Assembly: GCA_014529615.1 (NCBI GenBank)
Contig: JAABVD010000001.1
Coordinates: forward strand, 1 to 51,385
DNA length: 51,385 nt
Direction of reading: 5' to 3'
Source: Opitutia bacterium
GTDB taxonomy: Bacteria; Verrucomicrobiota; Verrucomicrobiia; Opitutales; UBA2995
The notes under the pieces are model-generated. The model was not told where the DNA came from. It made no database searches and saw only the letters and a program-made list of their open reading frames with translations. A program made the translations under genes and the position numbers. Positions 3,305-8,107 of the stretch are shown piece after piece. Numbering within the stretch: position 1 is the stretch's first letter; each line of letters starts with the position of its first letter.

Positions 3305-4045
3305 ATGCCCCGTTTCCGTTCCTATTGCCCTTCCCTGGCCGTGGAGGGGGAAATCTTCCAGTTGGATGCTTTTGAATCGCGCCATCTGGTGGCCACCAAC
3401 CGCGCCCGGGCAGGGGATGAGGTTATCGCCTTCGACGGAAAGGGCTTGGAATGTACCTGCCGGATTGTGGAGGCCGACCGCCGGAATTCCCGCCTGAGAA
3501 AACTGACTTGCGGCAAGCTGGTCCGGATGGGGACAAAAATCACCCTGGCCCAAGCGGTGACCAAGGGAAAGACCATGGACTCCATCGTGCGACGGGCCAC
3601 GGAGCTGGGAGTCTTCAGGATTCAGCCCCTCATATCGCAGAGGATTCAGGTTCGGTTGAATAACCTCCCCCGAAAATCGGACAAATGGAAGCAGCAGTGT
3701 ATCGAGGCCTGCAAGCAAAGCGGAAATGGATGGATCCCACAACTGTCCGCCCCGGTTCCCTTGCAACATTTCCTCGTATCCCTCGATTTTGATTTGACCC
3801 TATTGGCTAGTCTGCGGGGAAGGATTACCCCATGGCAAAACCTCGATCCCGGCCCGGCCACCTGCGCATTGATCATCGGCCCCGAGGGAGATTTTTCCAC
3901 CGAGGAGTACAAACTTCTCCGGAACAGCGGAGCCGTGGGAGTTTCCCTGGGGCGTCACGTCCTTCGCTCTGAAACCGCGGCCGTTTCCGCCCTTGCTCTG
4001 GCCAACCAATTCTTGGGCTACCAGACCAAAAGCCCGCCCGCGTAG
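3305..4045 (+). CDS. rsmE: 16S rRNA (uracil(1498)-N(3))-methyltransferase RsmE
   Basis: A 246-residue SPOUT-class methyltransferase that methylates U1498 of 16S rRNA. The N-terminal PUA-like part (about 1-75) includes SRHLVATNRARAGDE. The SPOUT domain carries the family's C-terminal knot motifs: IIGPEGDFSTEE and VSLGRHVLRSETA, which bind SAM. KATELG-like RRATELGVFRIQPL and the EQ-like IEACKQSG segment are also recognisable. Its last 28 bp overlap the 3' end of the convergent FabH-fusion gene. A strong terminator lies 78 bp upstream of the ATG. Confidence 0.93.
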   Translation: MPRFRSYCPSLAVEGEIFQLDAFESRHLVATNRARAGDEVIAFDGKGLECTCRIVEADRRNSRLRKLTCGKLVRMGTKITLAQAVTKGKTMDSIVRRATELGVFRIQPLISQRIQVRLNNLPRKSDKWKQQCIEACKQSGNGWIPQLSAPVPLQHFLVSLDFDLTLLASLRGRITPWQNLDPGPATCALIIGPEGDFSTEEYKLLRNSGAVGVSLGRHVLRSETAAVSALALANQFLGYQTKSPPA

Positions 4046-5607
4046 GTGAGGCCCGCTCCCACGGAACAAAAGATGATTTTATCCCCTTTCCGGAAGATCC
4101 CCTCTTCGGCGGCCCACCCCAATGCCATGGAAACCGAGGCGGCGGATGTATTGCCATATTTTCCGATGGTTACGACGAAACGTTCGTAGGGGATCCCCAC
4201 CCTTTTCGAAACCGCCCGTAAAATACGCTCGTTGGCCTGATGTGGAACAACCCAGGACACATCGTCTATGGTGAGGTTCTCCCGTTGCAATGTCTGTTCG
4301 ATCATATCGGCAAAAGCGACCACGGCATACTTGAAAACGGCGGAACCGTTCATGCTGAGGTAGAAGTCCGACACATCGCAACCTGAATGGGCTATGGGTT
4401 TTTTGGCCCCGCCGCCCACTCGTTGAATGGCCTCATATTGGGTAGCGTCGCCACTAAGGCCCATGCGATGAAGCCGGGTCCCGCCGGGGCTGTCGGTCAG
4501 AATAGCGGCGCCGGCGCCATCGCCAAAGAGGAAGGCGGTGCTGTAATCCTCGTAATTGGTAATGCGGGATAACAATTCGGCCGTTACGACCAGGAGATTT
4601 TGGGCGCTGCCCGATAATATGAAGGTGCGGCCGATTTCCAAGGCGTAAAGCCACCCGGAACAAGCCGCGTTCAAGTCGAAAGCCAAGGCGTGAGGTACGC
4701 CCAAATGCTTGGCCAAGGCGCTGGCGGCGCTGGGAACAGGTTGATCCGGAATAATAGTGGCCAGAATAATTCCATCGATTTTGGAAACGTCCATGCCGGC
4801 CATGGCCAGGGCATGCTCGCTCGCCCGCGAGGCGTAGGTAGTAACGCCTTCCTCCTCTGCCGCGACATATCGGGACGAAATCCCCGTGGTTTTTACGACC
4901 TCGTCAGCCGACTTATCGGGAAATCTCTTCAGGATTTCCTCATTGGTCCGAACGCGCCCGGGAACGGCATAACCGAAACCGGCAACACATACGGTCTGTC
5001 GACTGGTGTCGGAAACGGGCGCCCCGGTGACATCGGCTTTAGGCAATGACTGGGGATGGCTATTCAAGTAGGCTTGCACGTCATCCCCGGAGACGCGCCC
5101 TCCCGGTCCGGTTGGATCAATTGCGGTAAGCTCTGAGGAGTCGAGGCCCGCTTCACGCGCGAGGCGCAGGGCCTTGGGGGTCCATTTGATACTTGTCCCA
5201 CCCACGGCCGGCTTCAGGACAGGTCGAGGTGGGGGGGATGGAGCCGGGGATGTTATCGGCCTGACCGGGGCGGGTACGGTTGCCCTCATCCCTGTCCAGG
5301 CTTGAGAGGTTGGCGCCCGGCGAACTTCTCCCTTGATCTCCAGATGCTTTTGCGTCTCATCGGCCGTCTCGATCTCAAAAAACGGGGCATTGGCATCTAC
5401 GATATCTCCGGCTCGCACCAGAATATTTTTTATGACCCCGTCGCAGGGAGCCTCATAGTCGAAAGCTGATTTGTCGCTTTCGAATTCCGCACAGGTTTGC
5501 CCTTTGGCGACCATGTCGCCCGCTTCCACGTGAAGATCGATCACGGTGAGTTCATGAACAGTCGCTCCCATGGAGGGGACGGGTATCAGGGCCAAAAATT
5601 TCTCCAT
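4018..5607 (-). CDS. Lipoyl domain - E3-binding domain - 3-oxoacyl-ACP synthase III (FabH) fusion
   Basis: A 529-residue protein with three parts. Residues 1-82 form a lipoyl domain with the target lysine K46 in EFESDKSAF (an E-x-D-K-A type site, not the biotin A-M-K-M). Residues about 141-181 form a peripheral-subunit-binding domain (TPKALRLAREAGLD, TGPGGRVSGDDV), reached through a Pro/Ala linker. Residues about 203-529 form a complete FabH with the catalytic triad C316 (LNAACSGWL), H456 (VPHQANERI) and N486 (GKYGNTSAA). In dehydrogenase complexes the first two domains belong to E2, which passes an acyl group from lipoate to CoA. Here KAS III, which condenses an acyl primer with malonyl-ACP, replaces the E2 acyltransferase. 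I infer direct acyl channelling into fatty-acid initiation. It follows pyrG-kdsA on the same strand, 18 bp after kdsA. No E1 or E3 gene is in the window. Confidence 0.9.
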   Translation of the reverse strand: MEKFLALIPVPSMGATVHELTVIDLHVEAGDMVAKGQTCAEFESDKSAFDYEAPCDGVIKNILVRAGDIVDANAPFFEIETADETQKHLEIKGEVRRAPTSQAWTGMRATVPAPVRPITSPAPSPPPRPVLKPAVGGTSIKWTPKALRLAREAGLDSSELTAIDPTGPGGRVSGDDVQAYLNSHPQSLPKADVTGAPVSDTSRQTVCVAGFGYAVPGRVRTNEEILKRFPDKSADEVVKTTGISSRYVAAEEEGVTTYASRASEHALAMAGMDVSKIDGIILATIIPDQPVPSAASALAKHLGVPHALAFDLNAACSGWLYALEIGRTFILSGSAQNLLVVTAELLSRITNYEDYSTAFLFGDGAGAAILTDSPGGTRLHRMGLSGDATQYEAIQRVGGGAKKPIAHSGCDVSDFYLSMNGSAVFKYAVVAFADMIEQTLQRENLTIDDVSWVVPHQANERILRAVSKRVGIPYERFVVTIGKYGNTSAASVSMALGWAAEEGIFRKGDKIIFCSVGAGLTYAGGLLVW

Positions 5608-5625: not shown

Positions 5626-6391
5626 TTATTTCTCAGCGGCCAAGGATTTGGATAGACGCCAGACTTGCAAGAAAGATTCCACCACCCCGGGCAAGTCCGA
5701 TAAAGGCACCATGCTGGGCCCATCGGATACGGCGCGTTCCGGGGCGGCATGGGTCTCGAGAAATATTCCATTCACGCTGTCCGTCGCTCTGACCAGGGCC
5801 GGCGCTGGGCAACTGAACGCTATGGGTGGCATCAAAGATAACCGGATGGCCCGTTTGCCGCATAATGGAAAATCCACGCATGTCCACCACCAGATTGTGG
5901 TAACCAAAGGTCGAACCCCTCTCGGTAAGCCAAACTTCCGCCGCTTTTCCATGCTGCAGCTTGGCCACCACGTGGACCATGTCGGATGGAGAGGTGAATG
6001 GGCCCTTCTTGACATTGACCGCGTTCCCGCTTTTTGCCGCGGCCAGAAGCATGTCGGTTTGTCGGCATAAAAGGGCGGGAATCTGCAACACGTCTGCCAC
6101 TTCGGACACGGCCGTTACCTGGTGGGGTTCATGGAAATCGGTCAGGACCGGAAACCCGTAGGAGGTTTTGATTCGGGCCAGAATTGCCAGCCCCTCCTCC
6201 AGGCCCGTGCCGCGCCCTCCCCCAATGGAGGTGCGATTTGCCTTATCGAAAGATCCTTTGAAAACGATGTTCAAGTCCGGCCATGTTTGAGCGAGTTCCG
6301 CCAACCTCTCGGCCACGGGACGGCAAGTCCCCATCGATTCCAGGGAACAGGGCCCGGCTACCAACAGCATTTTTTGCGGATCATAGAGCAT
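5626..6391 (-). CDS. kdsA: 3-deoxy-8-phosphooctulonate synthase (KDO-8-P synthase), apparent internal deletion and frameshift
   Basis: Condenses phosphoenolpyruvate with arabinose 5-phosphate for KDO of lipopolysaccharide. Family landmarks are [52 protein letters not shown] and [14 protein letters not shown]. After that point the frame is lost. The ending continues in another frame ([25 protein letters not shown]) to a TAA region at 5626. About 10-12 residues expected between VQLP and LVRA are missing, so a deletion of roughly 30-35 bp with frame change near 5795-5815 is the simplest explanation. Read literally, the first frame would stop at 5633. Its ATG directly follows the pyrG stop (TAAATG), so the two are translationally linked. 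KDO synthesis needs CTP at the next step, which suits the pairing. Confidence 0.88.

Positions 6392-8107
<1,716 letters not shown>

Follow-up and report, generated by a model that had tools for sequence, protein, structure and literature searches.

Domain architecture of a lipoyl-KAS III fusion protein

What does a 2-oxoacid dehydrogenase E2 protein do when its acyltransferase core has given way to a fatty acid condensing enzyme? The question is raised by an open reading frame in a 51,385-nucleotide stretch of DNA from an Opitutia bacterium (the window), which runs on the minus strand from the ATG at 5607 to the stop codon at 4018-4020, unbroken over 529 aa. The original prediction, which gave no strand for the gene, held that a lipoyl domain, an E3-binding domain (PSBD) and an intact KAS III (FabH) share this frame, that FabH has taken the place of the E2 acyltransferase, and that acyl groups could be condensed directly from lipoate. 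The features of the locus are as follows.

4018..5607, minus strand: gene for the lipoyl-PSBD-KAS III fusion (529 aa; coordinates include the stop codon)
5371..5586, minus strand: lipoyl domain, aa 8-79 (Pfam PF00364)
5470..5472, minus strand: K46, predicted lipoylation site in ESDKS (K in 97/97 homologues)
5185..5352, minus strand: Pro/Ala-rich flexible linker, aa 86-141 (by composition; AlphaFold2 pLDDT <50 for 98-138)
5074..5184, minus strand: PSBD (E3-binding), aa 142-178 (Pfam PF02817)
4999..5052, minus strand: second short flexible linker, aa 186-203 (AlphaFold2 pLDDT <50 for 190-202)
4021..4998, minus strand: KAS III (FabH) domain, aa 204-529, with C316, H456 and N486
5626..6391, minus strand: kdsA, conserved upstream neighbour, frameshifted in the window
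6392..8089, minus strand: pyrG (CTP synthase), conserved upstream neighbour; gene order pyrG-kdsA-fusion

The predicted domain set was confirmed by Pfam, which placed Biotin_lipoyl at 8-79, E3_binding at 142-178, ACP_syn_III at 310-373 and ACP_syn_III_C at 440-529, each above its curated cut-off, and K46, C316, H456 and N486 were all found at the positions originally assigned to them. NCBIfam names the C-terminal part beta-ketoacyl-ACP synthase 3; its PRK09352 score is above the cut-off and its TIGR00747 score just below (291.9 vs 292.1). The AlphaFold2 model (mean pLDDT 80.7) consists of confident domains joined by two low-confidence linkers (98-138 and 190-202), and FabH structures were the Foldseek matches of its KAS part (4ryb, TM 0.94 on target). 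The 2-oxoacid dehydrogenase acyltransferase domain (PF00198) gave no match to the fusion protein in the Pfam search, and the fusion locus is not among the matches of the PF00198 genome search. A biotin domain in place of the lipoyl domain was ruled out by the ESDKS around K46, which we take to be a lipoyl-type motif where a biotin site would read AMKM.

Conservation and history of the fusion

Identity of the fusion protein to its counterparts is 91% for the sister genome, 68-71% for members of the family and 59-63% for those of other families. All four Pfam domains were detected in 41/41 aligned fusions. K46 is conserved in 97/97 lipoyl domains, as are the lipoyl-domain glycines at K-16 (G30) and K+11 (G57) in 96-97 of the 97. 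In the PSBD, W142, P144 and G154 are kept in 97/97 and R171 in 95/97, and C316, H456 and N486 are retained in every KAS row that covers these positions. Comparison with the sister genome gave a dN/dS of 0.12 overall, 0.06 over the KAS part and 0.09 over the lipoyl domain, showing that the gene is under purifying selection.

A lipoyl-PSBD pattern scan of GTDB genomes yielded 180 relatives, and 80 loci were kept. All but one of these (79/80) have titles that agree with Verrucomicrobiota, chiefly Opitutia, and include Opitutaceae, Pelagicoccus, Ereboglobus, Lacunisphaera and Opitutus; the remaining locus is labelled Sumerlaeota. The contig labelled Candidatus Sumerlaeota (L112) carries the full pyrG-kdsA-fusion set, and its label is likely a binning error. 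Among 388 sampled genomes of the phylum, the fused-type KAS was restricted to Opitutales, and no plasmid-borne copies were found in the plasmid collection searched.

We classified 97 loci, 74 of which are fused, 14 split into adjacent genes and 9 reduced to a lipoyl-PSBD gene alone; the domain order is thus conserved in relatives, against the original concern that it might not be. In a pyrG tree that took in 76 of the 97 loci, with SH-aLRT as the only branch support, fused loci occupy the deepest branches, the split form is confined to a single derived group, and the state with lipoyl-PSBD alone, likewise derived, arose several times. Because of this distribution, the fused state is, as judged from the tree, ancestral and long retained. 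Two separate genes, which had been named as an observation that would count against a fusion, do occur, but they trace to one derived fission after which the genes mostly remain adjacent; in some Opitutaceae the break lies in the second linker (aa 186-203).

These data also bear on whether the fusion could be an assembly or annotation artefact, or a chance fusion in decay. The window belongs to a MAG and the neighbouring kdsA is frameshifted, but many independent assemblies share the fusion, including the complete genome IMCC26134 (L122), and the low dN/dS speaks against decay, so that we give this explanation practically no credence; an assembly artefact in particular is ruled out by the conservation of the fusion. 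The kdsA of the window is split into two frames, and the sister genome has an intact copy (L039 6523-7332); the frameshift probably arose in sequencing or assembly. The frame of the fusion gene itself is clean. Two other loci show isolated lesions in the KAS part of an otherwise intact fusion, namely a single in-frame TAA (L009, genome G047) and a frameshift (L099), both of which are likely sequence errors or recent decay.

Loss of the CoA site and retention of the ACP side in the KAS domain

We aligned 84 fused-type KAS domains, which share 35-40% identity with housekeeping FabH, to E. coli FabH, whose numbering is used here. C112, H244, N274 and R249 are invariant in 84/84, and the ACP-docking side is kept, with K or R at K214 in all sequences and basic residues at 256/257. 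The four residues of FabH that contact CoA adenine and phosphopantetheine (T28, W32, R36 and R151; PMC4606726) are all replaced: T28 by R, K or M, W32 by E in 82/84, R36 by L, V, T or I, and R151 mostly by H or Y. Mutants of the M. tuberculosis enzyme at equivalent positions have been deposited in the PDB, according to the entry titles (2aj9, 2ahb). The corresponding residues in the window are K232, E236, T240 and Y355, and F87 is replaced by V291. All four contacts are present in 21/21 housekeeping FabHs of Opitutales. They are also kept in another 20 housekeeping FabHs, taken both from genomes that have the fused KAS and from genomes that lack it. Position 87, which bounds the primer pocket of the E. 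coli enzyme, is V in 81/84 fused KAS domains and F in most Opitutales housekeeping FabHs, including those of the window's family; as evidence for branched primers it is only suggestive, given that many Opitutaceae housekeeping FabHs have M or L there.

The simplest reading of a KAS III with a lost CoA side, a retained ACP side and a lipoyl arm is that it is fed from lipoate, and on that evidence alone an ACP-bound primer would be the main alternative. Loss of the CoA contacts with retention of the ACP-docking residues would also fit an ACP-bound donor, which counts against the lipoate-fed reading. Acyl-ACP or another carrier could then prime the KAS, and the lipoyl-PSBD part would only dock it to a dehydrogenase complex or sense redox state; we regard this as improbable, since it leaves unexplained both the full conservation of the lipoyl lysine and the close co-occurrence with the orphan E1 described below. 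KAS III enzymes are also known to have transacylase activity, in favour of a KAS domain that acts as a plain E2-like acyltransferase and passes the lipoyl-bound acyl group to CoA with no condensation. That proposal is very hard to reconcile with the loss of the CoA contacts and with the invariance of H456 and N486 of the condensation triad and of the ACP-docking residues.

An orphan E1 accompanies the fusion

Both partner genes that the original prediction suggested looking for are present in the window's genome, which encodes an alpha-beta-fused E1 of 686 aa (L037) and a dihydrolipoyl dehydrogenase (E3). Among solved structures, the alpha half of this E1 is matched better by branched-chain E1 than by pyruvate E1, with human branched-chain E1 alpha closest by E-value. 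The beta half resembles pyruvate and branched-chain E1 to about the same degree, an ambiguity that weighs against the explanation that we prefer.

Across 223 Opitutales genomes, the fused-type KAS occurs in 25, the E1 alpha-beta in 34 and both in 24, and each is limited to families f1, f13 and f24. The sole fusion genome lacking the E1 (G007) is 75% complete. Ten genomes have the E1 and no fused KAS; two of them (G006 and G097) are fragmented MAGs, and the other eight, all Opitutaceae, carry a stand-alone lipoyl-PSBD gene behind pyrG-kdsA. The complete genome G040 (f13) has neither the E1 nor the fused KAS nor such a lipoyl-PSBD protein, and in the phylum-wide sample the E1 was found in 21/21 fusion genomes. 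As the shared distribution falls mostly within one clade, independent events are fewer than these counts suggest.

We surveyed catalytic E2 domains in 25 genomes. Most have two; a few have three, the third being a weak match in a very long frame. At the nine E2 loci inspected, the E2 adjoins its own E1-beta or an E3 gene and never the E1 alpha-beta; a dedicated E2 beside the latter was sought and not found. No catalytic E2 acyltransferase was found in the sister genome (G001, a congener of the window's genome, 96% complete), and the window's own genome (G000) has an E2 only as a fragment at a contig edge (C162, L050). The genus thus seems to be without a catalytic E2. Elsewhere in the window's genome (L047 15211-17531, contig C236), a separate pair of genes for E1 alpha and E1 beta precedes a free-standing lipoyl domain of ~76 aa, which is closed by a stop codon and lacks a PSBD or catalytic core; these E1 genes adjoin genes resembling a sugar transport operon.

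In most loci the fusion lies behind pyrG-kdsA, and in nearly all loci examined the E1 alpha-beta gene precedes kdsC and lptB. Both genes therefore flank KDO/LPS genes, the fusion adjoining kdsA and the E1 adjoining kdsC/lptB (L163-L173, L176-L178 and L182). The two were not found in one operon; the closest spacing, 12-18 kb, is seen in four genomes of one lineage, near dnaA. These positions suggest that both may have originated among the same KDO/LPS genes. That they lie in separate operons, with few independent events behind their co-occurrence, counts against the preferred explanation.

Proposed lipoate-fed priming of fatty acid synthesis

Together, these results support replacement of the E2 acyltransferase core by KAS III in the fusion protein. 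The part of the original prediction that concerned this swap is upheld and strengthened by the long conservation, the orphan E1, the lost CoA contacts and the retained ACP side, and also by the sister genome with no catalytic E2 found. Direct transfer from lipoate to the KAS was the other part, and here we infer lipoylation of K46, binding of E1 and E3, acyl transfer to C316 and branched-chain specificity. Taking the evidence as a whole, we consider it likely that this E2-like protein with a KAS III core primes fatty acid synthesis directly from acyl-lipoate. The complex would be a 2-oxoacid dehydrogenase with a C-C bond-forming KAS III as its E2, converting a 2-oxoacid to 3-oxoacyl-ACP with no acyl-CoA, a description toward which the evidence leans.

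In the proposed cycle, the alpha-beta-fused E1, encoded elsewhere beside kdsC-lpt, would decarboxylate a 2-oxoacid, probably a branched-chain one, and acylate the lipoyl group on K46. The lipoyl arm would swing on its long Pro/Ala linker to the KAS domain and hand the acyl group to C316, malonyl-ACP would dock on the conserved basic surface, and condensation would yield a 3-oxoacyl-ACP as the first intermediate of a fatty acid. Bound to the PSBD, E3 would reoxidise the arm, and acyl-CoA would be bypassed throughout.

The fusion shares with the E2 proteins of the PDH, OGDH and BCKDH complexes an N-terminal lipoyl domain, a Pro/Ala linker, a PSBD and a C-terminal catalytic domain, as well as partner E1 and E3 genes in the genome. 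It differs from them in its core, which is KAS III and not the PF00198 acyltransferase, and in its predicted product, 3-oxoacyl-ACP in place of acyl-CoA. With KAS III enzymes such as E. coli FabH and B. subtilis FabHA and FabHB, the latter two being FabHs for branched primers, it shares the thiolase fold, the Cys-His-Asn residues and the ACP-docking residues, but all four CoA contacts are replaced and it has its own lipoyl arm and PSBD. By its sequence, then, the protein has neither an E2 catalytic domain nor the CoA site of FabH, and is predicted to join the arm of one to the chemistry of the other. The proposed delivery of an acyl unit by an E1 and a lipoyl domain recalls QncN/QncL/QncM (SclQ1-4) from the biosynthesis of quinocarcin and scleric acid, in which an E1-like enzyme and a lipoyl domain feed an ACP-based pathway (PMC6335953). 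In that system an acyltransferase domain passes a C2 unit to ACP, whereas the fusion, with which the E1 alpha-beta co-occurs, has no acyltransferase domain and carries a condensing enzyme that should make a C-C bond. The partner E1 has the alpha-beta form of other fused E1s of the 2-oxoacid dehydrogenase family, but it has no dedicated catalytic E2 alongside and its beta half is ambiguous.

Nothing relevant on a lipoyl-KAS fusion was found in the open-access papers searched, and no description of the lipoate-to-KAS priming route was found there. If the proposal is true, lipoate would act as primer carrier for fatty acid synthesis, the textbook role of CoA, and E2 cores would be exchangeable for a condensing enzyme in a multienzyme complex of a previously undescribed kind. 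It would also account for an E1 without an E2, link branched membrane lipids directly to 2-oxoacids derived from amino acids, and provide a natural model for engineering the CoA-free loading of starter units.

KAS-lacking genera and branched-chain fatty acids

Four Opitutaceae genera (g46, g48, g70 and g79) have lost the KAS and kept the E1 alpha-beta and lipoyl-PSBD, an observation that stands against the lipoate-fed explanation. Their housekeeping FabHs keep the CoA contacts and have M, L or I at position 87. One Lacunisphaera MAG (L090) is in the lipoyl-PSBD-only state, and Lacunisphaera species have iso-C15:0 as their main fatty acid, at up to 49% (PMC5303756). Since at least one of the four genera, Lacunisphaera, still makes iso-fatty acids, the KAS step appears dispensable, and since iso-C15:0 remains its main fatty acid, another acceptor can presumably serve the arm. 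The E1/lipoyl pair may therefore be older or more general than its coupling to the KAS.

All of these features favour a different arrangement, in which the lipoyl-PSBD part is a branched-chain dehydrogenase carrier that feeds a borrowed E2 core (of PDH or OGDH) or another acceptor to give acyl-CoA, while the KAS is only held on a tether and takes another primer. We think this unlikely. It does not sit well with the absence of a detected catalytic E2 in the 96% complete sister genome, with a fused state that is ancestral and long retained, or with the loss of exactly the CoA contacts in the fused KAS.

Published fatty acid profiles, which the original prediction had pointed to as a check, are compatible with direct priming from acyl-lipoate and do not single it out. 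Among cultured relatives of the fusion carriers within Opitutia, the main fatty acid is anteiso-C15:0 or iso-C15:0 (PMC12193912), consistent with what a branched-chain primer predicts. Branched fatty acids occur also in Opitutia of families showing no fusion, and iso/anteiso acids are found in Coraliomargarita and Puniceicoccus (PMC10288369, PMC12193912); with these genera and Lacunisphaera, which lacks the fused KAS, we rejected branched fatty acids as a diagnostic phenotype. In the four KAS-lacking Opitutaceae genera, the stand-alone lipoyl-PSBD gene lies behind kdsA (L183-L190 and L090).
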